Assembly: GCF_020524085.2 (NCBI RefSeq)
Contig: NZ_CP129016.1
Span: 2,536,001 to 2,600,000, forward strand
Source of the DNA: Halobacillus litoralis
Lineage (GTDB): Bacteria; Bacillota; Bacilli; Bacillales; Halobacillaceae
Length of the DNA stretch: 64,000 nucleotides
Reading direction: 5' to 3'
Shown here: piece by piece, positions 42,630-64,000 of the stretch
Numbering within the stretch: the first letter of the stretch is position 1
How the letters are laid out: each line of letters starts with the position of its first letter
Program-made: the position numbers and the translations under genes
Notes under the pieces: generated by a model
The model's input: the letters and a program-made list of their open reading frames with translations, nothing else
The model's database searches: none
Told to the model about the DNA's origin: nothing

Positions 42630-42642
42630 CGATACACCTCCT

Positions 42643-42677
42643 AAAAGGGGACAGATTTTTCTAAATTGTACCCTTTT
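42643..42677. promoter_or_regulatory. Candidate operator between the SgrR-type regulator and the MFS gene
   Basis: AAAAGGGGACA and TGTACCCTTTT form an inverted repeat (10 of 11 matches) with a 13-base spacer in the divergent intergenic region. Its position fits autoregulation plus control of the transporter. Confidence 0.5.
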
Positions 42678-42726
42678 TACCCCTTTTTGGAAAGTCCATA
42701 ATAGAAGGAACAAAGGGGGAGGTCAC

Positions 42727-43993
42727 ATGTTCAAAGAATTGCATCCCAACATCCGGATCCGCATTTATACATCATTTCTCAGCCGGGTTGTAGGAGCCGC
42801 TGTGTTTCCATTCATGGCCATCTATTTTACAAAAGAAATCAATGCGACGGTGGCAGGCGTTCTGCTGCTGATTCAAGTCGCGGCTCAGTTCCTGACGGGT
42901 CTTTATGGCGGGTACTTAGCAGATATCATCGGCCGGAAACGCTTGATGGTGACAGGGGAGGTCCTGAAGCTAGCAGCTTTCATCGGCATGTTCCTAGCGA
43001 ACTCTCCGTGGTTCCAATCCGCATGGGTGACGTTTTTCATGCTGCTGCTCATCGGAATAGCCGGAGGTCTTGTGAACCCCGCGGCCGAGGCGATGCTCAT
43101 CGATGTCAGCACGAAAGATTCTCGGGCGTTCATGTATGCGATCAACTACTGGGCGATCAACATGTCGATGATGATCGGACTCATGATCGGCGGCTGGTTT
43201 TTTGAGAGGAACCTGTTCGAATTGATCGCTGTCCTCCTAGGGATCAGCTTGTTGACGCTCTGGATGACGAGTACGAAAATCACAGATACATACGTCGTGA
43301 GCGAAGAGAAAGTGAGGGAAGGGTACGGACTGAAGCCGGTTTTGAAAAATTACAGCCTCGTCATGAAAGACATCCCGTTCCTCGCGTTCACAATCGGCGG
43401 GATTGCGATCTTAGGCATCGAATTCCAGCGCAACAATTTCATTTCCGTCCGTCTCGAACAGGACATCGCATCAAACATGATGGACCTTTTCGGACTGTTT
43501 TCTTTCGAACTGGACGGCATCCGGCTGCTCAGCCTGCTGACGGTCGCAAATACCTTGTTCATCGTTCTGTTCACATCACTTTTCTCAAGATGGATCAAAG
43601 GGAAAAGAGAAGAACCGATCATGTATGCCGGCTTCGCCTTGTTCGGACTGGGCTATGCTTTTCTTGCGTTCAGTAATCACATCCCCAGGGCTCTTCATCG
43701 CTGTCATCGTCCTTTCGATCGGTGAATTGCTGTATGTCCCGACAAGACAGTCGATCCTTGCCGATATCGTCGATGATACGCGCCGGGGAGCTTATATGGC
43801 TTTCAACGGCCTGGTCTTCCAGTTCGGAAAAATCCTCGGAGCCTTGGGAATCATCATCGGGAATGTCATCGGAGGGTACGGCATGGCTGTGCTTTATGTC
43901 GGACTCGTGTTTGTAGGCATCCACTTTTCCAGAATGGCGATTCGGCGTAGGAAATCACCGGAAGAAATCGTCCTTGAGGCGAGTGGTTCATAA
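42727..43993 (+). CDS. MFS efflux transporter, one-base frameshift
   Basis: 421 aa restored, from ATG 42727 (GGGGGAGG upstream). MFS landmarks: 'YGGYLADIIGRKRLMV' (motif A after helix 2), 'VNPAAEAMLIDVSTKDSRAF' and 'YVPTRQSILADIVDDTRRGA'. The first frame breaks at about 43690; deleting one C from C4 at 43683-43686 restores 'SNHIPGLFIAVIVLSIGE' and runs to 43993. Twelve helices are then complete. Divergent from an SgrR-type regulator, as for sugar- or drug-efflux pumps; substrate unknown. Confidence 0.85.
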
Positions 43994-51178: not shown

Positions 51179-52955
51179 ATGTATAACAAACAATACAAGG
51201 AGTGCTGTAACTATTGTGGATTAGCACTATGCTGCTGCCGATGCGGTCCTCATCCACCTAAATGTTCGAAGCGCTCTAAAGGGTACTTTCTTTGCTGTAT
51301 GACATGTAAAAAGGGACCGTGCTGTTGCATGTGCCATTTTGGAATACAAAACACTTACCCTTTGTGCCAAGGCTGCAGGCTTCCTGTCTGTTGCTGTAAG
51401 AAAGCATCACCATTTCCTCCTAAACCGATTGTATGTCCGCCTTCTAGATTCAAAAAGATATTCATACAGGATGGGCAGGATCAATTTTTAGGGGAACAAG
51501 TCCAGAACCAGGCTCAGGCTCATGGAGATCAGGGTGGCCAATTGCAGGGGCCTCAAGTACAGAGGTTAAGACAAGAACATGGAGACCAAGGGAGGGCAAG
51601 CGCAAGGTCCTCAACAACAAAGGCTCAGACAGGAACACGGAGATCAGGGAGGGCAGGCCTTAGGTCCTCAACAACAAAGACTTAGACAGGAACACGGAGA
51701 TCAAGGAGGGCAGGCTTTAGGTCCTCAGCAACAAAGGCTGAGACAGGAACACGGAGATCAGGGAGGGCAGGCTTTAGGCCCTCAGCAACAAAGGCTGAGA
51801 CAGGACCATGGAGATCAGGGAGGGCAGGCGCAAGGACCTCAACAACAAAGGCTGAGACAGGACCACGGAGATCAAGGGGGCCAGGCGCAAGGACCTCAAC
51901 AACAAAGATTGAGACAGGAACACGGAGATCAGGGAGGGCAATTGCTGGGCCCTCAAGACCAAAAGCAAAAACAACAACACGGAGATCAAGGGCAAACGCT
52001 TGAACCACAGGTCCAGAATCAAGAGCACGGAGATCAAGGGCAAACACTTGAACCGCAGGTCCAGAATCAAGAACATGGTGATCAAGGACAAATCCTTGGG
52101 CCGCAGCTTCAGAACCAGGAGCATGGCGATCAGGAACAAGGTCCTCAAATCATCGATGGTCATACCAATACATCACCGCTAAACAACGCTCAATCCATTG
52201 ATACGTCTGTAAGTGGCGTCACCGTTAATGTGACCACGAACTGTAAGAGTGATATGGAATGTAGTGCAAAGGATGAGTGTGACGAGTGTGATGACTGTGA
52301 AAGAAAAGGAAGAAAATGCAAAATGGATAGGAAGTCAAAGAAAAATAAGCGGAAAGGATTGTGTGAAAAGGATTGTGACTGCTGTACGCAGGCGCTGTCC
52401 GATTTATTAGATGAGATTCGTATCTCTCAGCAGGCGGATATCTCTGGTAACCCTATCGATATATATTTAACCACGCCTCAAATGGATGGTCCGGTAACCC
52501 CTCCAGTGGGAAGTCCAGGTTGGACCATTACAAACGTTGTGGAATGTTCAACTGTAACATTTAAGGACGCAGTACAAGATGCGGTCATTCCAAACACCAC
52601 CACTCAACTTTGTAAGGTTGCAGGGATTAGTGCTGACAGTACTGCAACTACACCCGAGTTCTTTCAGTTCCTATTAGATCTGGCGAATACGTGTGATAGT
52701 GATTCAGATTTAGATTGTGACTGTGACTGCTGTGCGAATGGGATTGGCGAGGGGCTTGCGTGTACCACAAGATTCGGAATTGAAGTAGATGTGAACATTG
52801 AAGGTCAGGATAGCCCGATAGAAGAATTATTTGTGAAAAGTATATGTGACTGCTTAGTCTTTTTTGTGGATGATCTGAATGATCCTACGGTTATCTATGT
52901 GTTTACTTTATGTTCGGTTACTGGGTACACGGTCCCTACTCAGTCACTAGGATAA
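51179..52955 (+). CDS. Cys-rich, Gln-rich repeat protein, candidate spore coat/exosporium protein; one-base frameshift
   Basis: About 591 aa once joined. Residues 1-90 are Cys-rich ('CCNYCGLALCCCRCG', 'CCMTCKKGPCCCMC', 'CQGCRLPVCCCKK'). Next come seven 19-residue repeats (H-G-D-Q-G-G-Q-x-x-G-P-Q-Q-Q-R-L-R type) and three to four 16-residue repeats ('HGDQGQTLEPQVQNQE'). The C-terminal domain has more Cys clusters ('CDECDDCERKGRKC', 'KDCDCCTQALSDLL', 'DCDCDCCANGIG'). The first frame breaks at 51590: the second repeat starts 58 bases after the first instead of 57, so one extra base (GGG at 51590-51592) is certain relative to its sister units. Composition suggests a disulfide-crosslinked outer spore layer protein (inference). 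Confidence 0.75.
51571..51970 (+). repeat. Seven 57-bp tandem coding repeats
   Basis: Units begin at 51571, 51629, 51686, 51743, 51800, 51857 and 51914 (ACAGGAACACGGAGATCA or close variants). All steps are 57 bases except the first, which is 58. Confidence 0.95.
51975..52140 (+). repeat. 48-bp tandem coding repeats
   Basis: Three to four units of CACGGAGATCAAGGGCAAAC type, 16 codons each, directly after the 57-bp array and sharing its HGDQG core. Confidence 0.85.
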
Positions 52956-52993
52956 ACAATGATTAAATCCTTTAAAGCGTAGAAAGTGAAGAA

Positions 52994-53025
52994 AAAAACA
53001 TCCCTCTTATGGAGGGATGTTTAAT
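52994..53025. terminator. Bidirectional terminator
   Basis: AAACATCCCTC / GAGGGATGTTT with a 5-nt loop, between converging genes. Confidence 0.85.
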
Positions 53026-53054
53026 TATGCGAAGAAATCACTGTGGCTTATTTT

Positions 53055-53465
53055 TTAATTCTTTTGGTCCGATGAATCGTCTTCGGATTTGTTAATTTGG
53101 GAAGATAACTGTTCCATAGTCTCATTGAGCTTTTTCATTTGTTCAGACAATCCATGAAGAAGGGCAGGCAGCTCTTCTTTTGCTTCCTGTATAGGTTGCA
53201 CGTTTTCTTCATTGATGGAGTATTCACGGCCGTTTATTTTAATAGTATTTGATTTTTGTTGCACGCCTGTTTGGTCTGCCATTTTGTTAGCTTCATTGAT
53301 TTTCTTTTTCAATACATCCTTTTGATCTTTCATCAATTTTTTAAAATCAGAATTGAAACCTCTCATTAGTTTATTGATACCCTCTGTAATTTCTTTCTGC
53401 TTTTCTAAAGCTTCATCAACTATTTTGTTTTGATCATTATTCTCATTGGGAGTGTTCTCACTCAT
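53055..53465 (-). CDS. Coiled-coil protein, 136 aa
   Basis: ATG 53465 chosen for AGGTGG upstream. Long amphipathic helices ('KQKEITEGINKLMRGFNSDF', 'LMKDQKDVLKKKINEANKMA', 'GLSEQMKKLNETMEQLSSQI') surround a short beta-like insert ('NTIKINGREYSIN'). No family recognised. Monocistronic. Confidence 0.6.
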   Translation of the reverse strand: MSENTPNENNDQNKIVDEALEKQKEITEGINKLMRGFNSDFKKLMKDQKDVLKKKINEANKMADQTGVQQKSNTIKINGREYSINEENVQPIQEAKEELPALLHGLSEQMKKLNETMEQLSSQINKSEDDSSDQKN

Positions 53466-53586
53466 AATATCCACCTCTATCATTTTTAGTGTACTTATCC
53501 ATATTTTATGTCCTGCATAAGAAGGCGTGTGGGTTTTACAGAGTGCGAACTTGGCCGAAGGAATGTAACTTCTAGAAAAGGAAAAA

Positions 53587-53625
53587 GTACGAATGGGGAG
53601 CGTTTGAAACCCGCTCCATTCGTAC
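53587..53625 (-). terminator. Terminator of the 53633-55078 gene
   Basis: GTACGAATGG(G)GAGCG pairs with CGCTCCATTCGTAC around TTTGAAACC; CTTTTTCC follows on the minus strand. Confidence 0.8.
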
Positions 53626-53632
53626 CTTCTGT

Positions 53633-55078
53633 TTACTGAGGAGGTCTGTAATTATATTTTAAAGGGTTGAAGACAGTTCCGCCTTGTTCCGCATTTTGGT
53701 ATCTCTGCTGTTGTTGTCGTGCCAATGCACTTGGATTTGTTCTCGCCTTGTTTCGTTCAGGCTGTTTAGACAACGCAGGTTGAACATTTTGATGTTGTTT
53801 CAGAAATTGGTTGTTTGTTGGTGAACCATAACTTTGTGGTCGGGGAGCCTCCTGCTGTTTTATTTGCCTTGTTTCTCTATTTGTCTTCACTGCATTCGCT
53901 TGGTTCAGGGTTCGTAGCTTTTCCATTTCTAATTTTAATTTAGCTTCTATCTCTTGTTGTAATCTAGCTTCCATCTCCTGAATGAAAGCCTCTTCGTTCT
54001 CACTCAAATCATAGATTAGTTTTTTTACTTCATTGATTTGATTCTCGGAAGTTGTCAACCTTGAGGCAAGTTCTTTGTTGGATTGATTCGTCTGTTCTAA
54101 CTCCTGTTCTATTTGTTTCATGTAGGATTGTTTAGAGGTAGAGGTCGATTCTTCAAATTGATGGATGAGGTCTCTAAGTTGAATGAATCTTTCGTCGAAA
54201 TCCAATAACTTTGAATGGATGTCCTGGGTGGTTTCTAATTCCTTTTTCTCATTCTCTGCAATCATGCTGATGTAATAAGATTCTTTCTCTTTAAACGCGA
54301 GTATCGTTTTCTTAAGCTCATGGACAAGGTCTTTTTGCTCGGTCAGTTCTTTTTCCAGATGTTCGACCTTCAATTCTAAAGGGCTTTTGTCAGGGGCTTC
54401 ATCATTCAGGGTCCAAAAGTTCTTGAACACTTCCATCCACGTCCTTTTTGTTTCATTTTCAGATTTTTCATCATCGGAGAATTGTTTTCCGCTGATGGGA
54501 TATACAGGTAATGCTTCCTCATAAACCCGAGGCTGTGGATTTGAGGAACTGCTAGCGTGAAGTGATTGAATGCTCCGATTTTGTTCAAGAATCGTTGCGT
54601 TCAGTTCTTCGATTTTATTTTTATATTTTGTAATGATCCCGTCTTTTTGTCTTAACTTATATCGATATTCTTTGTTTGAAGCACGGAGGAGAAAGAGTTG
54701 CTGCTCCAACACTTTTATTTGTCGCTTTAGCATTTCATCCTCATCCTGCCATGTATAGGATAGAGGGAAGAGATGGGGGGAAGAGCGGCTCGGATCTGTT
54801 GTTTTAGTTTGTTCAGACATGACATGTTGTTTTTCAAGAGGGGTTCGTTGGATTCGATCCTGCTCCAACTTTTTCAGTTCTTGTAATAGGTCACCAAGCA
54901 GCAGCTGCTTTAGTTTGCTATTCCATTCCTGAATTTTTTCGGTTCTCTCTGTCATTTGTTTTTTTATTTGCTGGAGCTTACCGTGGGAGGAGGATAATTG
55001 CTTATTCACCGTATGAATCATTTGTTTAAAATTGCTGTTATCATCATTGAAGTTATGGAAAACAATGTTATTTTTCAT
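53633..55078 (-). CDS. Large coiled-coil protein, 481 aa
   Basis: GGAGGATGAAGG precedes the ATG. After a short head ('NNIVFHNFNDDNSNFKQMIH') nearly all of residues 20-400 is heptad-rich helix ('LEQQLFLLRASNKEYRYKLR', 'LEKELTEQKDLVHELKKTIL', 'IEQELEQTNQSNKELASRL'). The C-terminal 80 residues are Gln/Asn/Pro/Arg-rich and disordered. Not recognisable by family; resembles scaffold proteins such as spore-coat morphogenetic or filament proteins. Sits in the candidate spore-surface cluster. Confidence 0.65.
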   Translation of the reverse strand: MKNNIVFHNFNDDNSNFKQMIHTVNKQLSSSHGKLQQIKKQMTERTEKIQEWNSKLKQLLLGDLLQELKKLEQDRIQRTPLEKQHVMSEQTKTTDPSRSSPHLFPLSYTWQDEDEMLKRQIKVLEQQLFLLRASNKEYRYKLRQKDGIITKYKNKIEELNATILEQNRSIQSLHASSSSNPQPRVYEEALPVYPISGKQFSDDEKSENETKRTWMEVFKNFWTLNDEAPDKSPLELKVEHLEKELTEQKDLVHELKKTILAFKEKESYYISMIAENEKKELETTQDIHSKLLDFDERFIQLRDLIHQFEESTSTSKQSYMKQIEQELEQTNQSNKELASRLTTSENQINEVKKLIYDLSENEEAFIQEMEARLQQEIEAKLKLEMEKLRTLNQANAVKTNRETRQIKQQEAPRPQSYGSPTNNQFLKQHQNVQPALSKQPERNKARTNPSALARQQQQRYQNAEQGGTVFNPLKYNYRPPQ

Positions 55079-55207
55079 CCTTCATCCTCCTCAGGTGGTG
55101 CATGCTATTATAGATATATGTAGAATTTTGTAAGAAGTGTATCGTGTGGAAAAATGTAAAGGGAGGGAGCGACCCCTGCCCCTTTTCAGCAAGCTGAACC
55201 CATATCA

Positions 55208-56548
55208 TTAATCCTCAAACGTAACACAACCTTCTATTTTTAGTTCATCTTCTGGTACATCTGCTCCTTCAGCCTCAATGGTATTCCCGGCGATGTCCGT
55301 GAGAGTAAGGGTGTATTCACCAGCATTACCAAGACCAGTATCTATTACAAGCTCAAAAGATACACGGCGATTAAGAAGACTATTATCCTTGAATTTCAAC
55401 CATCCCTGCCCTGTAACTGTCATAGAAGAGTCTCCGGATTCATCGATATTACAAACTTCAGGTAGATCAAATGTTGTAGCTTTGAATGTAAAGCTGTAAT
55501 CCGGGTCTCGTGGGGTTCTCAAGTCTTTAAAGGTATAGCGCAGTGTACTTCCAGATAACGTACAGTTATTACAGATATTCGTATGCAATGTCGTCATGTT
55601 GTCAATACCATCAGGTGCTCCATTAAAACCGGTAAATGCTACTTCCTGACCAGTCAACATCGTCATCGCCCATGCTTGACAGTCACAGTTTTGACGAGGG
55701 AATATATCAGGACATTGCTCTGGAAATGTGATTTCCGGACATTCTACACGGTCTTTAACTTTGATGTCATTTGGACGTGGAGAACAGAATTTGCCCCAGA
55801 CTTCCAGTTTTACTTCCGCTGCCACCTGTATCTCCTTACAAATCTCCAACTTAAGCTGAACCATATTTCCGAACAGAACCCTTTCGGTTGGTCTGCAGAC
55901 AATTTGAGTGATTTTACAAGTGATATTGAATTCATTTAAGGGAGCAGGGATGCAGAGCGCATATTCATCTTCGAATTGGATAGGGGTTTCGAAGGTACAT
56001 AGGAGTTTGTTTTTCGTTTCGTCGAATATTTTAACCGTTACCCATAGTGTCCAAAGGATTCGGACAACTCCAGGAGTACCATTTTCAATTTCAAGGATCT
56101 CGCAATCAATCTTCTTTTTCTTAGGATGCCGTCTTTTCTCATTTTCCTTATCACTATGGTCTTTGCAATCCTTGTTCCACTCATTTTTACATTTTTTGCA
56201 CTAGGGGTCCTTGCATGGCCATGGATGGTGATAGTCCTTGTAATCATGGTTTCCCTTTGGAGGGGAATGAGGAGGATGGGGGTCTTCTTCTATTTCATCT
56301 GCTTGTGAAGGGTCATAAAAATCCGGAGCTTCACATTCCACCCTGAGGTTGTGATGTTTTTTTAAAGCTTCCTCGACTTTCTCGCGACACGATTCTTTAC
56401 AATACGATCCATCCGGGATCACCGTTTTATTCTTATAGGTATTGACGTCGGTCACCCAATCATAAACTTTTTCTACTCGAATACATTCCGGCATGACACT
56501 GTTGTTTATTAATCGATCTTGGTTGTTCTGATGATCAGAAGAAGTCAT
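55208..56548 (-). pseudogene. KVYDW-family Cys-rich protein, interrupted by one in-frame TAG
   Basis: The minus strand reads without frame change from ATG 56548 (AAAGAGGTG upstream) to 55208, except for a single TAG at 56203-56201 ('PCKDP*CKKCKNEWNKD'). The N-terminus has 'CIRVEKVYDWVTDV', the middle 'NITCKITQIVCRPTERVLFG' and the C-terminus 'DIFPRQNCDCQAWAMTM', each matching the intact genes at 58232 and 60162. An His/Asp/Pro-rich stretch near the stop is unique to this copy. Reading through would give 446 residues. A nonsense mutation, a sequencing error and true readthrough are all possible. Confidence 0.75.
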
Positions 56549-56636
56549 GACAAACACCTCTTTAATGAATTACTTACGATTAGGCTATTCAACTAGTAAA
56601 AAAAGGTGTTAGCCTATCTTCCACTTTTGAGACATG

Positions 56637-56665
56637 AAAAAAAGGAGAGGGGTTCTCTCCTTCAG
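56637..56665 (-). terminator. Terminator of the 56805-58049 gene
   Basis: GGAGAG / CTCTCC with loop, then T7 on the minus strand. Confidence 0.75.
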
Positions 56666-56804
56666 ATGTAAGCAATTAGAACACTGACATTAAAATTTAT
56701 AAAAAGGGGTTACTTTGATGTTACTCTGAATCACTTGTCATTTGTCACTGCATATATATGAGGGAACTAAGAACAACGATGAGCTCTCGCATTTTATCTA
56801 TAAA

Positions 56805-58049
56805 TTAGAATGAAAAGGCGATGCGGTTATTAGAAGGAAAGCGATGTTTTCCTTGATTCAAATAGATAAAACCATCGATCGCTATATTGGTCGTTTCAGC
56901 AGAGGGACGAAGGACGATTTGGAAGTTACGTAAACCTTCTTCTGTGCCAGGTGGAATCTCCATAGCTTGGATAGGGGCTATCCAATATTCCCCTTTGTCT
57001 TTCACTTTTTTCATCCAGTCATCATACACATATCTCCACCCCGTACCTCCGGATTGGTTTTGGACACTCATCGTATCCACCATGGATGGAGGAACGATTT
57101 TGCCACTGAAGTCCACGCTGTTCACGGGATCCTTCTTAATACAAATGATCGGATTTTCTAATGTTGCCGTTCCTGTATTTTTTATAATAAAACTTCCATT
57201 GATCAGATACTCGTTATCTTCATCCTCTGGTTCTGGGGGGATGACGGTGTAGTCGAAAAATCCTTCTGCTTTCGTTTCTTTTTGAGTCTGGGTGGGTGGA
57301 GGTGAAAATGCCTGAGATTCCACACTTTCTTTCCGATCATTCTTGGGATTTTCCACTTTGGATTTAACTTCTTTCTTATCGACTTTTGGTTCCTCTTTTG
57401 CGTCTTTCGTGTATCCCTCCAATAAGTTTTTCAACCAGTGTTTTTGTAGGTCTAAAGGAAGGTAAGGAACCGTACTCGTTGTATGTTGGTCCGTATAATA
57501 TTGCAGGATGGCCCTAGTCAATCCTTCTGAAATGAGGTTCATAAAATCATTCTCTCGTTCATAAGGGGTAGGGATTTTAACGACAAGATACGGAACATCA
57601 TGCTTATCCTGATGGCTTTTCTTAAACTGTGTCGATCTTGTATCGAGTTTTAATTCTTTGTTCAAGTAATTTTTAAATTTGATGTCTAAGGACGAATGAT
57701 ATTCAATCAGCAGTGCATACTCGTCTGAAACTTCTTTCCGATGGTGGAACTCAATGATTAGATCAGGTTTTATCGATAGATCAGAGTCCAATCGAACGCT
57801 GAATCCGAATGATTCTAAACCCCCGTAAAGATCTTCTTTCACCCGTTTAATAGAAGGAGATAATTTTGGATTGCTCGTGGATAGGTCAATGGTGTGCTTC
57901 CTTAAAGCAGGCATGAATTCAATTTGTTTATTATCCCGGTGATGGTTTGAACGTAGTCCATGTCTTTCGCAGAACATAGAAAACCCGGATAAGGAAGATT
58001 TAGAAAGTCTTCCTATAACGACTCCATCAAATAGAACCTCTGTGAACAT
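56805..58049 (-). CDS. Unrecognised protein X, 414 aa
   Basis: GGGAGGGC precedes the ATG. Two parts joined by a Lys/Glu/Pro-rich linker (about 205-260). The N-terminal half ('MFTEVLFDGVVIGRLSKSSL', 'IKPDLIIEFHHRKEVSDEYA', 'LISEGLTRAILQYYTD') faintly resembles an amidase-like alpha/beta domain, lacking clear zinc ligands. The C-terminal half ('GSFIIKNTGTATLENPIICI', 'MSVQNQSGGTGWRYVYDDWM') looks beta-sandwich-like. It is divergent from the KVYDW gene at 58232; a 5' fragment of a second copy survives at about 59775-59985. Confidence 0.65.
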   Translation of the reverse strand: MFTEVLFDGVVIGRLSKSSLSGFSMFCERHGLRSNHHRDNKQIEFMPALRKHTIDLSTSNPKLSPSIKRVKEDLYGGLESFGFSVRLDSDLSIKPDLIIEFHHRKEVSDEYALLIEYHSSLDIKFKNYLNKELKLDTRSTQFKKSHQDKHDVPYLVVKIPTPYERENDFMNLISEGLTRAILQYYTDQHTTSTVPYLPLDLQKHWLKNLLEGYTKDAKEEPKVDKKEVKSKVENPKNDRKESVESQAFSPPPTQTQKETKAEGFFDYTVIPPEPEDEDNEYLINGSFIIKNTGTATLENPIICIKKDPVNSVDFSGKIVPPSMVDTMSVQNQSGGTGWRYVYDDWMKKVKDKGEYWIAPIQAMEIPPGTEEGLRNFQIVLRPSAETTNIAIDGFIYLNQGKHRFPSNNRIAFSF

Positions 58050-58231
58050 GTGCAGCCCTCCCTGTATGGCATGGCAAACCTATTCTCAAAAAATAGTAAC
58101 CTATGGAAATTTAATAATTTTATAGGCAAAGGTTGATTTATAACAGAAGCGTGTATATCGCCCGTAACAGCGGCAACCTCCTTTCATAATATGTTAGTGC
58201 AAATATTATATTGCAGGAAGGATGAATACTA

Positions 58232-59440
58232 TTGTTAGAAAAGCCAATTAAAGGATCGCAACTGACTCCGAACAATGTCCAGGAGGAATGTGTGCGCGTC
58301 CAGAAAGTGTACGACTGGGTCGTTGATGCTGTTTCTAGAGATGATCGAATCACTGTGCCTGAAGAATGTCAAGCGGCGATCGATTTAGCTGTTGCAGAGG
58401 GGAGAATTCCGCTTGATGTAACATGTGAGGCGCCTGAAGTTCCGCCTTTGTTCCCGCTGATTCCAAAACCACAGCCGGACCCGTCGGGAGATGCATTCTG
58501 TGTCATTTCCGCGAACATTGAACGCCCGAAAACGGTTTATGTGGGTGGAGTACCTGTAGAGGTAGCCGTCATTAAAGCTGTATTCCGTGTTTTGCCGACT
58601 GTCACGGTCAGAGACAGCAATGGAGATATCATCTGTGAGTTCATGCCGGCCATCACGCAAAGCAAAAAGATTGCTGTATGTCTGCCAGAACCATTGACAA
58701 GAGATAATATCCTTTGCCGCATCACTCAAATCACTTGTGATGAGAACTTCCTTGAGGATGCGCCGGGCGGAGAATTGGATCTTCAGCTGGATGTTACGAT
58801 CTGCTTCGAAATCCAAGTTGAAGCGGAAGTGAAATTAGAGATCTGGGCGAAGTTCTGTCACCCACGTGAGAATGACATCAGAGTTAAAGACCGTGTGGTA
58901 TGTCCGGAATTCACATTCCCAGAGCAGTGTCCTGATTTGTTCCCTCGTCAGAACTGTGACTGTCAAGCCTGGGCAATGACCATGCAGGAAAACCAATCGG
59001 TAACCTTCACTGGTTTTGATGGTAGTGACCAACCAGATGAAAATACGACAAACATGACAACTTTGAATGCAAATATCTGTAATAACTGTACGCTATCAGG
59101 AAGTACGCTACGCTATACGTTTAGAGATTTGGATGATTCAGATTCGGTTGATTATAGTTTCACATTCAAAGCCAAGACTTTTGATCAGCCAACGTGTACC
59201 GACGATGACCCTGCTGTCCCAGTAGCAATGACAATTACTGGTCAGGGATGGTTGAAATTCCAAGACGAAACAAATAACCTTCTCAATCGACGAGTGAATT
59301 ACACACTTGAAATTCAGAATGGCGAATATATGCTTACTTTAACGGATGTCTCTGGAAATACAATCGTTGCACTAGGAGAAACTGTACCAGAAGATGAACT
59401 GAAAGTAGAAGATTGTGTTACTTTCCAGGATCTTGATTAA
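58232..59440 (+). CDS. KVYDW-family protein, copy 1, candidate spore-surface protein
   Basis: 402 aa, start TTG 58232 with AGGAAGG 10 bases upstream (a nearby ATG at 58222 is out of frame and reads 9 codons). N-terminal 'EECVRVQKVYDWVVDAVSR', then a domain with 'CVISANIERPKTVYVGGVPV' and 'ILCRITQITCDENFLEDAPG' (paired Cys), 'CFEIQVEAEVKLEIWAKFCH', 'LFPRQNCDCQAWAMTM' and a beta-rich C-terminal domain ('ICNNCTLSGSTLRYTF', 'MTITGQGWLKFQDE'). No signal peptide. Residues 1-250 are almost identical to the copy at 60162, while the end diverges. The Cys pattern recalls DUF3794/SipL-like spore proteins, but I cannot make that firm. Confidence 0.65.
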   Translation: MLEKPIKGSQLTPNNVQEECVRVQKVYDWVVDAVSRDDRITVPEECQAAIDLAVAEGRIPLDVTCEAPEVPPLFPLIPKPQPDPSGDAFCVISANIERPKTVYVGGVPVEVAVIKAVFRVLPTVTVRDSNGDIICEFMPAITQSKKIAVCLPEPLTRDNILCRITQITCDENFLEDAPGGELDLQLDVTICFEIQVEAEVKLEIWAKFCHPRENDIRVKDRVVCPEFTFPEQCPDLFPRQNCDCQAWAMTMQENQSVTFTGFDGSDQPDENTTNMTTLNANICNNCTLSGSTLRYTFRDLDDSDSVDYSFTFKAKTFDQPTCTDDDPAVPVAMTITGQGWLKFQDETNNLLNRRVNYTLEIQNGEYMLTLTDVSGNTIVALGETVPEDELKVEDCVTFQDLD

Positions 59441-59454
59441 GAATTAAATGATCA

Positions 59455-59487
59455 GTAAAGGTGCGAAAAATATTCGCACCTTTTTAT
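59455..59487 (+). terminator. Terminator of KVYDW copy 1
   Basis: AAAGGTGCGA / TCGCACCTTT stem followed by TTATTATTT. Confidence 0.85.
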
Positions 59488-59574
59488 TATTTAGAAGAAA
59501 TGCAAAATTAAGGATTATATAAAATAGTCACTATTTAGATCTTATATGATAATCATCTAAGGTTAATAGATCGG

Positions 59575-59985
59575 AAACAGCCTTTTATTCAAGTGTTCAA
59601 TCGATAAATCACCACAAAGATTACTACATAGCAAAGAATGATTGAAATGAACGGCAAAAAGCCTCCGGTAAACATCTCCAGAGCATAGCCCCCATGTGCT
59701 CAAAAGGACGGAGCACAACAACCTCTGTCCTTTTCACCCCCCTTTTTCTTCAGTTTGAGTACTTCGTTCCTTCCATTTAATAGAAGGAAATGAATCCTGA
59801 TTTATCTTGGATAGATCGATGGTATGTTTCCTTAAAGCAGGGACGAATTCAATTTTATTCTTATCTTGGTCATGTTTCGAACGCAGTCTCTGTTTATCAC
59901 AGAACATAGAAAACCCGGACACGGAAGAATGAGAGAGTCTTCCTATAACCTCTCCGTCAAATAGAACCTCAGTGAATATGTGCAG
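59575..59985 (-). pseudogene. Chimeric remnant: 5' end of gene X fused to 3' end of gene Y
   Basis: On the minus strand 59985-59775 matches the start of gene X ('GFSMFCDKQRLRSKHDQD', 'PALRKHTIDLSKINQDSFPS') and 59770-59575 matches the end of gene Y ('RNEVLKLKKKG', 'HFNHSLLC'-like). The join falls at TTTAATAGAAGG, present in gene X and nearly so in gene Y. The gene X start codon has become ATA, and the gene Y part is frameshifted. It is the junction scar of the tandem duplication. Confidence 0.85.
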
Positions 59986-60161
59986 CCCTCCCTGAATTGC
60001 GTGGCAAACCTATTCTCGAAAAATAGTAACTTATGGAAATAAAATAATTTTATAGGCAATGGTTGATTTAGAACAGAGTCGTGTATAACGCACGTAACAG
60101 CGACACCCTCCTTACATAATATGTTAATGAAAATATTGTATTGCAGGAAGGATGAATACTA

Positions 60162-61364
60162 TTGTTAGAAAAGCCAATTAAAGGATCGCAACTGACTCCG
60201 AACAATGTTCAGGAGGAATGTGTGCGCGTCCAGAAAGTTTATGACTGGGTCGTCGACGCTGTTTCCAGAGATGATCGAATCACTGTGCCTGAAGAATGTC
60301 AAGCTGCTATCGATTTAGCTGTGGAAGAGGGGAGAATTCCGCTTGATGTAACATGTGAAGCGCCTGAAGTTCCGCCTTTGTTCCCGCTGATTCCAAAACC
60401 ACAGCCGGACCCGTCGGGAGATGCGTTCTGTGTCATTTCCGCGAACATTGAACGTCCGAAAACGGTCTATGTGGATGGAGTACCTGTAGAGGTAGCTGTC
60501 ATTAAAGCTGTATTCCGAGTTTTGCCGACTGTCACGGTCAGAGACAGCAATGGAGATATCATCTGTGAGTTCATGCCGGCTATCACGCAAAGCAAAAAGA
60601 TTGCTGTTTGTTTGCCAGAACCATTGACAAGAGATAATATCCTTTGCCGTATTACTCAAATCACTTGTGATGAGAACTTCCTTGAGGATGCGCCGGGCGG
60701 AGAATTGGATCTTCAGCTGGATGTTACGATCTGCTTCGAAATCCAAGTCGAAGCGGAAGTGAAACTAGAGATCTGGGCGAAGTTCTGTCATCCACGTGAA
60801 AATGACATCAGAGTCAAAGACCGTGTGGTATGTCCGGAATTCAGATTCCCAGAGCAGTGTCCTGATTTGTTCCCGCGTCAAAACTGTGACTGTCAAGCAT
60901 GGGCTATGACCATGCAGGATAACCAAATGGTTACCCTTACCGGTACAGCTGGTAGCGTATCCCCGATGCCGAACATGACAACCTTGCACGCTAATATCTG
61001 TAATAACTGCACGCTCGCTGGAAGTACTCTTCGTTATACGTTCAAGGATTTACAAGATACAGGTGCAAACGATGTTGATTACAGTTTCACATTCAAAGCC
61101 AAGTCCTTTGATCAGCCGGAATGTGACGACACAGACCCTACAGCCCCTGTAATGACAATTACTGGTCAGGGATGGCTGAAATTTGATGACGAAACTAATA
61201 ATCTCCTTAATCGACGAGTGAATTACACACTTGAAATTCAAAATGGGGAATATATGCTTACTCTTACGGATGTCGCTGGAAACACAGCTGTAGCAACAGG
61301 AACATCTGTACCGGCAGACGAGCTTATAGTTGAGGATTGCGTTACTTTCCAGGATCTTGATTAA
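60162..61364 (+). CDS. KVYDW-family protein, copy 2, candidate spore-surface protein
   Basis: 400 aa, TTG start with the same upstream context as copy 1. Nearly identical to copy 1 up to about residue 250 ('LFPRQNCDCQAWAMTM'). It then differs in a segment of about 50 residues ('QMVTLTGTAGSVSPMPNMTT' against 'SVTFTGFDGSDQPDENTTNM') before converging again at 'TITGQGWLKF' and 'LLNRRVNYTLEIQNGEYMLT'. The variable patch lies in the beta-rich C-terminal domain, as expected for an exposed surface. Confidence 0.7.
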   Translation: MLEKPIKGSQLTPNNVQEECVRVQKVYDWVVDAVSRDDRITVPEECQAAIDLAVEEGRIPLDVTCEAPEVPPLFPLIPKPQPDPSGDAFCVISANIERPKTVYVDGVPVEVAVIKAVFRVLPTVTVRDSNGDIICEFMPAITQSKKIAVCLPEPLTRDNILCRITQITCDENFLEDAPGGELDLQLDVTICFEIQVEAEVKLEIWAKFCHPRENDIRVKDRVVCPEFRFPEQCPDLFPRQNCDCQAWAMTMQDNQMVTLTGTAGSVSPMPNMTTLHANICNNCTLAGSTLRYTFKDLQDTGANDVDYSFTFKAKSFDQPECDDTDPTAPVMTITGQGWLKFDDETNNLLNRRVNYTLEIQNGEYMLTLTDVAGNTAVATGTSVPADELIVEDCVTFQDLD

Positions 61365-61379
61365 AAAGTTAAAGGATAA

Positions 61380-61411
61380 GAAAGGTGCAAAATTTATTCG
61401 CACCTTTTCTT
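61380..61411 (+). terminator. Terminator of KVYDW copy 2
   Basis: AAAGGTGC / GCACCTTT stem with AAAATTTATTC loop, then TCTTG; equivalent to the copy-1 terminator. Confidence 0.8.
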
Positions 61412-61504
61412 GTTAAAAGAATGCACTTAATAAAAAACATTGGGTAAAAAGAATGATTCTACATATTAAACACAATGTAGATGTTATACGAAAACCACTT
61501 AAGA

Positions 61505-62125
61505 TTAATAGACCGGAAACAACCTTTCATTCAAGTCTTCAATTGATAAATCTCCACAAAGATGGCTGCATAGTAAAGAATGATTGAAATGAATAGCGAA
61601 AAGTCTCCTGTAAACATCTCCAGACATAGCCTTCATGTGCTCAGAAGGATGGAGTACTAACACCTCAGTCTTTTTCACCCCTTTCTTTTTCAGTTTAAGT
61701 ACTTCGTTTCTTCCATCTAATAAAACACATTTCACAGGAATCGGAGGATATGACGCTATAAAAATCTTTTCATTAACTACCTCGGCTGTTGAACTGTCTG
61801 GAAAAAGCTTCAGTGAAGGATCAAGACGATTCAGCGGTATTTCTTCCGGTTCAATGTTATTTTTTTCTGTAAGGTATCGTGCTTTGGAGAGGCTCCATTT
61901 CATTTTATAAAAGTCATTATTCCCGACCGGTACCTTAATTTCAATTTGTGGGGATTTATCGACTATAAAAGGAGAGTTTTCAGCCTCCTTTAATTGATGC
62001 TTGTAATAGGCCAGAATATCTTCAAGGTTTGAAGGGGTGTGTACGATCTTCCGTCCATTCTGCCGGAGGAGCTTTTTCATATATTCAACAGACAAGAACT
62101 CATCCAATTTATAAATGTCCTGCAT
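61505..62125 (-). CDS. Unrecognised protein Y, 206 aa
   Basis: AAAGGAGTGAGAT upstream. Head 'MQDIYKLDEFLSVEYMKKLL', middle 'IEIKVPVGNNDFYKMKWSLS' and 'LKLFPDSSTAEVVNEKIF', end 'MSGDVYRRLFAIHFNHSLLC'. Soluble, with few Cys. No family recognised. Its 3' end was copied into the duplication scar at 59575. Probably belongs to the spore-surface cluster. Confidence 0.65.
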   Translation of the reverse strand: MQDIYKLDEFLSVEYMKKLLRQNGRKIVHTPSNLEDILAYYKHQLKEAENSPFIVDKSPQIEIKVPVGNNDFYKMKWSLSKARYLTEKNNIEPEEIPLNRLDPSLKLFPDSSTAEVVNEKIFIASYPPIPVKCVLLDGRNEVLKLKKKGVKKTEVLVLHPSEHMKAMSGDVYRRLFAIHFNHSLLCSHLCGDLSIEDLNERLFPVY

Positions 62126-62368
62126 GATCTCACTCCTTTACTAATAAAACGTTCTACAATTATATGAAGGAAAAATTCCGCATATGATTTTCATGAAAAT
62201 TTGTCAGAACAGAGGGATATGTCCATCCCTTATCCTATGCCGGTGAATAAGATAATCATAGGAAGGTTTATTAAAGAAGAACTCACAGAAGCACGAAACA
62301 ACCTGCATCGAATTATAATGAAGTAAACCTTTTCATACACTCTGAATTTGAAGAAAGGGAGTGGACTT

Positions 62369-62922
62369 TTGACACCAGAAGATTTCAATGAACTCTTCCA
62401 GAAACGCAGAAGAGTTCCTGCAGGTCGAAACAGAACCCAAAAGAAACCCAGGCAACTCTCCACAACGCAACCAACAAGAAAAAAAGGGGGCTGCGGCTGC
62501 GGAAGAAGAAGCTGATAGCGGTCGGGTGATTTATATTCATCACCAGTGTTATGAAAAAATGATTGCCCATTGCCGACGAGAACTGCCTTTTGAGGCATGC
62601 GGACTTTTTTTCTGGAAGCGATGGCCGTAATCACACCCATTGGGAAATGGAGAGCATTGTAAAAAGCCCCGTTTCCTTTGAAATGGATGTTAACGAAATT
62701 AGAGAAGTGTTTAGGTGGATGGATCGTAATGATGAAACGTTGACAGGGATCTATCACTCTCATCCAACAGCAGCACCACATCCTTCCGTGGACGATATAA
62801 GGAACGCCTATTATCCAAATGCTGCTTATTTCATCGTATCCTTCGCTTATAAAGAACCTGTAGTCAAATGCTTTTATATTCGGGATGCTAAGGTGATCCC
62901 GCTAATCATAAAACCATATTAA
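62369..62922 (+). CDS. JAMM/MPN (JAB) metallopeptidase, two homopolymer indels
   Basis: 183 aa restored. AAAGGGAG precedes TTG 62369 ('TPEDFNELFQKRRRVPAGRN'). One excess base in A7/G5 at 62479-62490 and one in T7 at 62605-62611 must be removed; the total of 554 bases then equals 184 codons. The JAMM zinc site is complete: Glu in 'RELPFEACGLFSGSDG' and His-x-His-x10-Asp in 'GIYHSHPTAAPHPSVDD'. Bacterial JAMM proteases cleave near a Gly-rich or Cys end of a partner protein; the substrate here is unknown. Last complete gene of the cluster. Confidence 0.8.
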
Positions 62923-62937
62923 TACGTTTAACCTGTT

Positions 62938-62972
62938 AGGCCTGAAGTTTGGAAAGCTTCAGGCTTTTTACG
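62938..62972 (+). terminator. Terminator of the JAMM gene
   Basis: GCCTGAAG / CTTCAGGC around TTTGGAAAG, then TTTTTACG. Confidence 0.85.
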
Positions 62973-63040
62973 TTCTTTGAAAGCTGGAATTCTTCATGTT
63001 TATTTTTCTGAGACATAAAATTGAGTAGAGGAATGGAGCG

Positions 63041-63121
63041 ATGAAGATGAATAAACCTGGTGAAGAACAACAAGGGGGATGGCAGGATGAAGAGGAGAAC
63101 TCAGGTTTCTTCTACAAGTAA
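63041..63121 (+). CDS. Possible 26-aa leader peptide overlapping the next gene
   Basis: AGGAATGGAG precedes ATG 63041; the frame ('MKMNKPGEEQQGGWQDEE', ends 'SGFFYK') overlaps the next gene's start by 35 bases in another frame. It may be a coupling leader or chance. Confidence 0.35.
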   Translation: MKMNKPGEEQQGGWQDEEENSGFFYK

Positions 63122-64000
63122 AATGTCCCACATGGAGCTTCAGCAATTGGTCATCCATTTAAAGTCTGAACTTTCCAGATATAAAACGAAGGAAATAGAT
63201 CATCAAACGATGAATCAGACCGTTGAAAAAATAACAAAGGAGAACAAGCAGCTTCTTCACGAAATTCAGAAGTTAAGAGGAATCATCGGTGATGGGAATG
63301 ATGGAAACTGGGCGATGAAGTTAGTGGAGAAAAACAATCGTTTAACGAAAGATGTTGCTGCACTGAAGCGTGAAATTCAAGAAAAAGAGAGTGCTCATCA
63401 AACTTTGACCGACACACTTGAAGATGTGAATTATCAATATATAAAGGCATTAAAGGATAAGGAGCGGCTGAAAGATCAGCAAAGAGAATTAAAGAACCAA
63501 CTCGCCGACTTGAAGGAAGTTCAAGCTGAACATACAAGAGAGATGGAGGATGCAACTAGCGAATTAGTCAAACAAAGGAGTGAAAATACCGCATGGAAAG
63601 TGAAAGGGTCGCTTTTGGAAAAAGAACTGGGAGTATTGAAAAAAGAGTATGAAGCGGTTCTAGATGAAAATCATGAGCAGAACAGCAGGATAATTCAATT
63701 ACAAGAAGACCATGAAAAGTTAAGTCAAAAGATGGAAGAACAAGCGAACATGGACGTTCAATATAAAGAAAACATACAGCGGTACATGATGCGTGAACAG
63801 CAGTTAGAACGTGAGGTTGATCAGTTAAGAGAAGCCTCCAATCAAGATAAAGCGCACTTGGAGGAAAGTCTACAAAAACAAAGGGAAGAGAATGAAAGAT
63901 TACAAAATGATAGAAAGCAATATAAAACGGAAGTGTCAAAAACAAAAGAGAAATATGAAACGCTTCTTACACAAAATGCAAAGCACCAACAAACGTTGAA
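63087..64000 (+). CDS. Coiled-coil protein, at least 304 aa, runs off the window
   Basis: GGGGGATGG upstream of ATG 63087; the frame is open to base 64000 without a stop. After 'MKRRTQVSSTSKMSHMELQQ' it is heptad-rich throughout ('LKREIQEKESAHQTLTDTLE', 'LLEKELGVLKKEYEAVLDEN', 'REQQLEREVDQLREASNQDK'). Highly charged, Cys-free, no signal. Similar in style to the 481-aa protein at 53633; the pair may form the fibrous part of the same structure (inference). Confidence 0.7.
   Translation, partial: MKRRTQVSSTSKMSHMELQQLVIHLKSELSRYKTKEIDHQTMNQTVEKITKENKQLLHEIQKLRGIIGDGNDGNWAMKLVEKNNRLTKDVAALKREIQEKESAHQTLTDTLEDVNYQYIKALKDKERLKDQQRELKNQLADLKEVQAEHTREMEDATSELVKQRSENTAWKVKGSLLEKELGVLKKEYEAVLDENHEQNSRIIQLQEDHEKLSQKMEEQANMDVQYKENIQRYMMREQQLEREVDQLREASNQDKAHLEESLQKQREENERLQNDRKQYKTEVSKTKEKYETLLTQNAKHQQTL

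Follow-up and report, generated by a model that had tools for sequence, protein, structure and literature searches.

A recurrent, putatively spore-surface gene cassette, duplicated and in part decayed, in Halobacillus litoralis

Positions 51179 to 64000 of the window (the whole stretch of 64,000 nucleotides of Halobacillus litoralis DNA analysed here, contig NZ_CP129016.1) carry a duplicated and partly decayed copy of a cassette that recurs in endospore-forming Bacilli. In the relatives, this cassette comprises a JAMM metallopeptidase, a small GCGC-tailed peptide, a coil often ending in FNPFK, KVYDW proteins, protein X and a long coiled coil. Its regular parts are one or more KVYDW/BMQ_0737-domain proteins, X and a coiled coil, which bears the FNPFK-type tail where the cassette is of the long form, while JAMM is found in many loci and the GCGC-tail peptide in some loci only. 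The window holds counterparts of every part and, in addition, a tandem duplication; the frames of KVYDW-1, JAMM and a Cys-rich gene are broken. We estimate a probability of about two in three that the cassette directs a two-step assembly, in the mother cell, of the spore's outermost protein layer.

The family of the KVYDW proteins has already been described. KVYDW-2 (58232..59440, + strand) and KVYDW-3 (60162..61364, + strand), which are 90% identical, scored 114.1 and 113.6 bits against NF052457 (BMQ_0737 family morphogenetic spore coat protein), above its curated cut-off of 71. KVYDW-1 (55208..56557, − strand) reached 94.4 bits when its frame of about 450 codons was read across a single in-frame TAG at 56201-56203; scored alone, its two pieces gave 28.4 and 59.4 bits. 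A fourth KVYDW protein lies beyond the window end. A sequence-only reading of this DNA had recognised the KVYDW paralogues, which are indeed present, but had considered them part of an undescribed locus, and for this family that view has to be abandoned. In excerpts of the literature, BMQ_0737-GFP is located with the proteins that lie outermost on B. megaterium spores, and the title of a 2014 paper calls BMQ_0737 crucial to the outermost layers of these spores; the same excerpts make no mention of partners of the B. megaterium protein. Our literature search found no report on the genomic company of BMQ_0737-family genes, and a fold search with a model of KVYDW gave no clear match to any solved fold. 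The KVYDW domain also occurs within proteins bearing HYR, SBBP or CarboxypepD_reg domains. Because some KVYDW proteins carry such extra modules (HYR, beta-propeller, CarboxypepD_reg repeats), the domain may be what anchors them for display at the surface.

Of 398 Bacilli genomes, 62 matched BMQ_0737, and Spo0A was found in 61 of these versus 325 of the 398 overall (Fisher p 3e-5, the genomes being related); in the one exception, G047, Spo0A was not matched at the limit used. Protein X, traced by its C-terminal domain, follows the family closely. Both were found in 60 of these genomes, BMQ_0737 only in 2, X only in 2 and neither in 334 (Fisher p 3e-66, again among related genomes). In 57 of 58 loci with both genes, selected via one or the other of them, the gap between the two was at most 1.13 kb, and it was 4.7 kb in the remaining one.

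X (56805..58049, − strand) is predicted to consist of an amidase-fold domain, a disordered linker and an Ig-like C-terminal domain. A Pfam scan of X returned no match, and the C-terminal domain is covered by neither a Pfam nor an NCBIfam model. The predicted fold is that of Amidase_3 (N-acetylmuramoyl-L-alanine amidase), but the zinc-binding His/Glu/His and the catalytic Glu were not found conserved. Between residues 45 and 195, no His column reached half of the rows, the best being 10/25 at residue 117. Glu columns were seen at residues 132 (21/25), 171 (15/25), 105 (11/23) and 69 (10/23), and a Glu may lie near one of the amidase sites, residues having been assigned to these sites by their order along the fold and not by measurement. 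The domain is predicted to be an amidase fold devoid of conserved zinc ligands.

Through X we found 32 named loci, in genera that we take to be endospore-forming. KVYDW genes were present in 31 of them, JAMM in 22, coils of clusters C7/C12 in 20 and the long coiled coil in 16; genes resembling glycosyltransferases were present in 26. Such genes, and others resembling those for sugar-nucleotide enzymes, are frequent neighbours of the cassette. This bears on the idea that ordinary, diverse coat genes came together by chance, their common motifs and neighbours reflecting hitchhiking. The very narrow distribution of Y and CC1 would fit such an origin, as would the three broken genes of the region, but the partners and, with variations, their order recur over many genera, and the co-occurrence of X and BMQ_0737 is almost complete. 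Recurrence thus speaks against chance for X, KVYDW, the long coiled coil and JAMM, while chance still stands for CC1, the Cys-rich gene and in part Y; as an account of the whole locus we hold it to be very improbable.

Promoter-like sites are consistent with expression in the mother cell. Consensus patterns for SigE and SigK were used with spacing set for this analysis, and upstream counts refer to dereplicated regions, with expectation and maximum from 60 shuffles. Upstream of KVYDW genes, SigK-like sites were found in 15/35 regions (0.78 expected, shuffle maximum 3). Upstream of X, SigE-like sites were found in 9/44 (1.68 expected, maximum 5) and SigK-like sites in 6/44 (0.72 expected, maximum 3). 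The coil showed a narrow excess of SigE-like sites (8/34, with 1.32 expected and a maximum of 7), and the three SigE-like sites upstream of the long coiled coil equalled the shuffle maximum of 3. JAMM (0/23) and F3 (0/14), which lie downstream in operons, had no SigE- or SigK-like sites. A SigK-like excess was seen for the other genes of the same regions too (11/162, with 2.55 expected and a maximum of 7). Upstream of KVYDW and X, sites typical of the SigE/SigK mother-cell regulon are thus clearly more frequent than chance; of the promoters anticipated before each gene, those of the coil are borne out narrowly and those of the long coiled coil do not rise above shuffles.

In the window, SigE-like sites precede X (58098..58123, − strand, offset −74), Y (62159..62185, − strand, offset −60) and the small peptide and JAMM (62315..62341, + strand, offset −54). 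SigK-like sites precede KVYDW-2 (58167..58192) and KVYDW-3 (60097..60122), both on the + strand at offset −65 and matching the looser pattern only, with the last A missing; a SigK-like site also lies upstream of CC1. The window scan reported no SigE- or SigK-like site upstream of KVYDW-1 or CC2. Sigma-70-like sites numbered 19 in the region, fewer than in shuffles (28.3, sd 5.0). Taken with the BMQ_0737 matches and the Spo0A association, the upstream enrichment supports the earlier proposal that the locus encodes spore-surface proteins produced in the mother cell. The accompanying claim that each gene has its own terminator was not upheld: stem-loops of at least nine pairs follow CC1, X, KVYDW-2, Y (between KVYDW-3 and Y) and JAMM, with a sixth inside KVYDW-1, and the terminator-like total in the region was 11 versus 9.9 (sd 3.0) in shuffles. 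Since stem-loops follow some genes only, a terminator is not proper to every gene.

Both coiled-coil-like proteins and the further long coiled coil reported earlier were confirmed. CC2 (53633..55078, − strand) is a coiled-coil protein with the C-terminal tail FNPLKY, and from this tail and hhalign we take it to correspond, probably, to the cassette coil that ends in FNPFK. FNPFK-type tails were found in 21/22 coils of clusters C7/C12 versus 6/497 other proteins, CC2 being among the six. In hhalign, CC2 gave 96% with cluster C7 over 59 columns of coil and <1% with C12; phmmer gave no match of CC2 to either cluster and BLAST did not join it to them. None of 17 F5 coils had the FNPFK tail, these coils ending in a different Phe-rich tail; both tail patterns were defined only after the tails had been seen. 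The long coiled coil, LC (63087..64000, + strand), carries the N-terminal motif LQQLVIHLKSELSRY and continues beyond the window end; the second long coiled coil of the cassette begins with a motif of the type LQQKIIHxKSEL.

The JAMM gene (62526..62922, + strand) is preceded by a separate gene (62369..62515, + strand) for a small, basic peptide of about 50 residues with the tail GGCGCGRR; the starts of these two genes and of LC were chosen in this analysis. The C-terminal piece of JAMM scored 48 bits against PF14464 (JAMM / Prok-JAB), passing the cut-off of 25, but in this assembly the frame is broken inside a T-run near 62605, and the window holds no intact single frame with the Glu, HxH and SxxD. 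This pattern was present in 39/41 JAMM sequences, the exceptions being one late start and the window piece. The PF14464 cut-off was passed in 22/61 relatives. Three of these matches, in G050, G051 and G053, had 25.8-26.4 bits and frames 232-260 codons long; they were attributed to a different JAB family and left out. The remaining 19 were all at the cassette, in 19/33 X-positive versus 0/28 X-negative genomes (Fisher p 4e-7). By profile search, JAMM was absent in 14/33 X-positive relatives, and a Lysinibacillus plasmid that carries the cassette yielded no JAMM within the 16.6 kb covered. Its earlier grouping with spore-surface genes is thus seen again in the same cassette of many relatives.

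JAMM and the GCGC-tail peptide could instead form a separate conjugation, sulfur-carrier or defence pair that merely lies beside coat genes. The best NCBIfam match of one cassette JAMM is indeed desampylase, at 58.6 bits and below its cut-off of 130, two gave matches to JAB models of PADLOC (E down to 1.3e-8), and the end of the peptide is rich in Gly and Cys. However, the cassette-type JAMM was found in the 61 relatives only with X and BMQ_0737, a protein ending in an FNPFK-type tail is encoded in each of the 22 named loci with JAMM, inspection of the cluster examples by eye revealed no E1-, E2- or ThiF-like protein, and the peptide is short and basic. A separate pair therefore appears quite improbable to us, and we retain JAMM as a part of the cassette.

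The Cys-rich, Gln-rich tandem-repeat protein gene (51179..52955, + strand) and CC1 (53055..53483, − strand), a small coiled-coil-like protein, form a separate module that adjoins the cassette; this departs from the single set proposed earlier, as both recur apart from KVYDW genes. The Cys-rich gene, with 57-bp tandem units at 51524-51940, is one frame broken within the repeat and was listed as two overlapping ORFs. The genes of the earlier inventory (Cys-rich repeat protein, X, Y and JAMM) are all present, with frames and gene calls amended. Relatives of the Cys-rich gene were found in 3/60 other genomes (G018, G013 and G053), and CC1, which adjoins it here and in G018, in 2/61 genomes with the own genome counted. 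In G013 and G053, the Cys-rich relative directly precedes two Enas-like genes each, which favours the view that the locus makes endospore appendages of the Ena type, with KVYDW proteins as pilins or fibre anchors. Against this, PF13157 had no match at E 0.1 in the ten window ORFs scanned, G013 and G053 have no KVYDW gene, and the Cys-rich gene lies outside the cassettes of the relatives, being elsewhere in G018. An Enas search of the own genome (family and one protein query) also gave no match, though neither query matched any genome and the search thus had no positive control. In G018, no Enas-like gene was seen near the Cys-rich relative within the 19 kb fetched. We consider an appendage locus unlikely.

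Y (61505..62125, − strand) appears to be a rare accessory protein, with relatives in two other cassette loci (L095, Bacillus sp. V3B; L096, Niallia endozanthoxylica), where it lies beside glycosyltransferase-like genes. None was found in the genomes of 60 other relatives, and a separate homologue search with Y returned only Y itself. Between KVYDW-2 and KVYDW-3, remnants of Y (59566-59691) and X (59773-59979) adjoin on the − strand (59566..59979) and probably are leftovers of a duplication followed by deletion. Their position suggests that an X-KVYDW-Y unit was duplicated.

In the assembly that we favour, SigE would first direct synthesis of X, the coil, the small peptide and JAMM, and these would build a scaffold on the spore as it develops. 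X would join this scaffold by its amidase-fold and Ig-like domains, the former perhaps retaining a groove for glycan or peptide without catalysis. Under SigK, KVYDW-domain proteins would then be produced in bulk, dock on the scaffold and become linked into a shell by their conserved cysteines. The role of JAMM would be to trim or release one of the scaffold proteins, the likeliest being one encoded in the same operon, either the coil or the GCGC peptide; this step may have been lost in the H. litoralis genome, provided that the frame break does not stem from the assembly. Localisation, cross-linking and the JAMM substrate are points that we infer. A further-reaching version, in which a SigE-made scaffold combines a dead cell-wall amidase fused to an Ig-like domain with coils whose C-terminal FNPFK-type tags serve for docking, and in which processing or release of these by a dedicated JAMM isopeptidase licenses polymerisation of SigK-made KVYDW anchor-domain proteins and their display of varied adhesin-like modules, an undescribed two-stage machine, is possible but doubtful; if true, it would put a bacterial JAMM at work in spore morphogenesis.

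Little is known of outer spore layers outside B. subtilis and the B. cereus group. The cassette provides a gene list with defined partners over many genera, among them Brevibacillus, Cytobacillus, Lysinibacillus and Halobacillus, and its presumed role in assembling a spore shell can be tested by deletions. It would be unexpected for coat assembly to involve a JAMM peptidase and an amidase that seems to be catalytically dead, and the KVYDW domain could anchor proteins displayed on spores.

In the Bacillus cereus group, the exosporium (with BclA, ExsY and other proteins) is an outermost, glycosylated, Cys-rich shell, and the layer that the cassette would build is comparable to it. On the Lysinibacillus plasmid, KVYDW, X, F3, F2 and F5 lie beside a gene annotated as exosporium glycoprotein BclB-related, but the profile scan of the ten window ORFs reported no match to an exosporium family. 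To the Enas appendages (PF13157) the link is the Enas-like neighbours, in two genomes, of relatives of the adjoining Cys-rich gene. X shares its predicted fold with Amidase_3 amidases such as AmiC2, Rv3717 and CwlD, whereas its inferred zinc and catalytic positions vary. With Prok-JAB/JAMM peptidases such as desampylase and Cap3, the cassette JAMM has in common the passed Pfam cut-off and the E/HxH/SxxD pattern; unlike them, it is linked to coat genes, has no recognised ubiquitin-like partner and is frame-broken here. The closest known relative of the KVYDW proteins in these comparisons is BMQ_0737 of Bacillus (Priestia) megaterium QM B1551, whose family model is matched by KVYDW-2 and KVYDW-3. 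Unlike in B. megaterium, three copies lie in the window and one more beyond it, KVYDW-2 is divergent from X, and in KVYDW-2 and KVYDW-3 the family profile stops at residue 238 of about 400 and is followed by a further beta domain.

The sequence-only reading had called this a candidate undescribed spore-surface locus; "undescribed" fails for the KVYDW paralogues, since they belong to a known coat-protein family: KVYDW-2 and KVYDW-3 score 114.1 and 113.6 bits against the NCBIfam profile NF052457 (BMQ_0737), whose cut-off is 71. The family's recurrent partner set, here called the cassette (a JAMM peptidase, a small peptide with a GCGC tail, a coil, KVYDW, X and a long coil), was not found described in the literature searched. 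Among the 120 of 186 KVYDW relatives that were listed, most without an organism name, the named ones fall in genera that we take to be spore-forming. Spo0A was matched in 61 of 62 BMQ_0737-positive genomes versus 325 of 398 Bacilli overall (Fisher p 3e-5, the genomes being related to one another); the exception is G047, which gave no Spo0A match at the limit applied.

The co-occurrence of KVYDW and X was borne out: among 398 Bacilli genomes, 60 carry both, two BMQ_0737 alone (G086 and G253, both with matches below the cut-off) and two X alone (G424 and G089), several of the X matches containing internal stops. In 61 relatives X was matched in 33 and BMQ_0737 in 34, the only difference being G034, whose BMQ_0737 match is below the cut-off. 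X is a near-constant partner of BMQ_0737. Its C-terminal domain is the best conserved part; before it, the long form of X has a predicted amidase-fold domain and the short form a stretch resembling a coiled coil. Neither Pfam nor NCBIfam gave a match above a cut-off for X or for one representative each of the protein clusters F2, F3, F5, F25 and F32 and the small peptide; the F2 representative gave generic coiled-coil matches only.

ORFs were clustered across 35 regions, that of the window and 34 others drawn from 32 relatives, all selected by X or KVYDW matches; KVYDW was present in 34, X in 34, the long coil (LC) type in 21, F3 in 18, JAMM in 17 and the F5 coil in 17. A second set, which shares at least two contigs with the first (L105 = L037, L120 = L040), comprised 32 named loci from a scan with alignment A2, with KVYDW in 31, JAMM in 22, C7/C12 coils in 20 and LC in 16, and, labelled by eye, glycosyltransferase-like genes in 26 and sugar-nucleotide-like genes in 21. 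Their genera, all presumably endospore formers, include Alkalihalobacillus, Niallia, Cytobacillus, Rossellomorea, Brevibacillus, Melghirimyces, Halobacillus, Thermoactinomyces, Salibacterium, Metabacillus, Neobacillus, Alteribacillus, Pontibacillus and Sutcliffiella, among others. In the common long-type order (L098, L114, L119, L124) JAMM, coil and KVYDW lie on one strand, followed by X and LC on the other; the arrangement differs in L118 and L121-L123, and in Brevibacillus loci a glycosyltransferase-like gene separates KVYDW from X, most of these loci giving no LC match. The short type has JAMM and F5 on one strand and KVYDW, X, F3 and F2 on the other. In L051, L052, L053 and L061 the short-type cassette has a gene of a surface-carbohydrate biosynthesis family nearby (F29; one member scanned by profile, TIGR04396). 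A Lysinibacillus fusiformis plasmid (L127, NZ_CP130332.1) carries KVYDW, X, F3, F2 and F5 next to a gene annotated as exosporium glycoprotein BclB-related, with no JAMM seen within 16.6 kb. The same five are present on a plasmid record labelled Stenotrophomonas rhizophila (L126, CP065518.1), which matches a L. fusiformis plasmid at 95-96% identity along 12 kb and is probably misassigned; CP031730.1 is a second record of this kind.

The window genes (bases 2536001-2600000 of a 3.9-Mb contig) correspond to this set, their order changed by duplication. Reading 51179-64000 from left to right, the Cys-rich repeat gene and the coil CC1 are followed by the coil CC2 (-), KVYDW-1 (-), X (-), KVYDW-2 (+), remnants of Y and X (-), KVYDW-3 (+), Y (-), the small peptide gene (+), JAMM (+) and LC (+). 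Beyond the window end, after about 850 bases, starts the gene of a fourth KVYDW protein (L035:14853-17015; 720 codons), which has a Gly-rich N-terminus and HYR domains. We read the adjoining remnants at 59566-59979 as the trace of a tandem duplication of X-KVYDW-Y followed by deletion. The only relatives found for Y are those of Bacillus sp. V3B and of Niallia endozanthoxylica, each within a cassette locus and immediately preceding a glycosyltransferase-like gene; 60 other relatives' genomes gave none. Three frames are broken in this assembly: the Cys-rich gene inside its 57-bp repeat, KVYDW-1 by a single in-frame TAG and JAMM in a T-run. Assembly error is possible, because a major-facilitator gene at 42307-43993 also seems split across two ORFs.

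Two short motifs link the coils to the cassette at the level of sequence. The first, [FIV][ND]Px[KR] among the C-terminal 25 residues, a pattern set after looking so that the contrast is descriptive, occurs in 21 of 22 C7/C12 coils versus 6 of 497 other proteins, the six (L107, L120, L122, CC2, L038 and L040, with L120 and L040 from one genome) being cassette-locus ORFs left unlabelled by clustering. In the relatives' regions it was found in 7 of 517 proteins (CC2, L038, L039, L040 and three F32 proteins). None of the 17 F5 coils of the short type has it; these end Phe-rich in a different way. The F32 proteins (L041, L044, L046) adjoin KVYDW and have NPFK-type C-terminal motifs; profile comparison did not support a relation to the X N-domain. 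The second motif, LQQxxIHxKSEL, starts both LC and F2 (hhalign 94.5%, 51 columns) and by pattern is found in C5 (16/18), F2 (16/18), F21 (2/4), C7 (1/11) and the X-type F1 (3/33). Relatives of the small peptide (62369-62515) that have a TPE-LYR-like start and the GCGC tail occur in L038, L039, L094, L114 and L119, between coil and JAMM in L114, L119 and L038; other loci share the tail but not the start, and the tail pattern also matches noise-like ORFs.

Upstream regions were searched with simple patterns built on the SigK and SigE consensus sequences, and counted again after dereplication at 60% identity. SigK sites preceded 32 of 70 KVYDW genes (1.3 expected) and SigE sites 13 (3.0 expected); for X these were 13 (0.9) and 15 (1.8) of 65, for coils 2 (0.8) and 11 (1.5) of 40, for LC 3 and 3 of 33, and for other genes 14 (4.3) and 10 (9.1) of 341, with none before 36 JAMM and 18 F3 genes. 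Dereplicated, SigK and SigE counts were 15 and 5 of 35 for KVYDW (best shuffle for SigE, 7), 6 and 9 of 44 for X, 1 and 3 of 28 for LC and 11 and 7 of 162 for other genes; coils kept SigE in 8 of 34. In the window itself, where a looser pattern was applied, SigK-like sites lie upstream of KVYDW-2, KVYDW-3 and the Cys-rich gene (each lacking the last A) and of CC1. SigE-like sites lie upstream of X, of Y and of the small peptide/JAMM pair. KVYDW-1 and CC2 had no site listed, and for LC there is a -10-like site alone.

Relatives of the Cys-rich protein occur in 3 of 60 other genomes (loci L137, L138, L139). In G018 its gene and CC1 (51179-53483 in the window) recur as a convergent pair, and the 19 kb of sequence taken from there contain nothing Enas-like. 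In G013 and G053, both without KVYDW, the relative directly precedes two genes each that resemble the endospore appendage family Enas, three of the four matching PF13157 (40.8, 30.6 and 27.2 bits; cut-off 22) and the fourth assigned by sequence. Because of these neighbors the window gene may encode an appendage-associated protein adjoining the cassette. No Enas gene was found in its own genome by searches that had no positive control.

The KVYDW domain may be an anchor module, since it is also found with other modules: at the C-terminal end, or close to it, in a frame holding 23 CarboxypepD_reg repeats (L128:7279-13932; 2217 codons in the fetched region and 3197 when the genome was searched), likewise in a frame with SBBP propeller repeats, and after the HYR domains of the fourth copy. 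A spore-surface role of the cassette is likely, and its mechanism is a proposal. In B. megaterium the BMQ_0737-GFP layer was located with the outermost proteins (PMC4656864).
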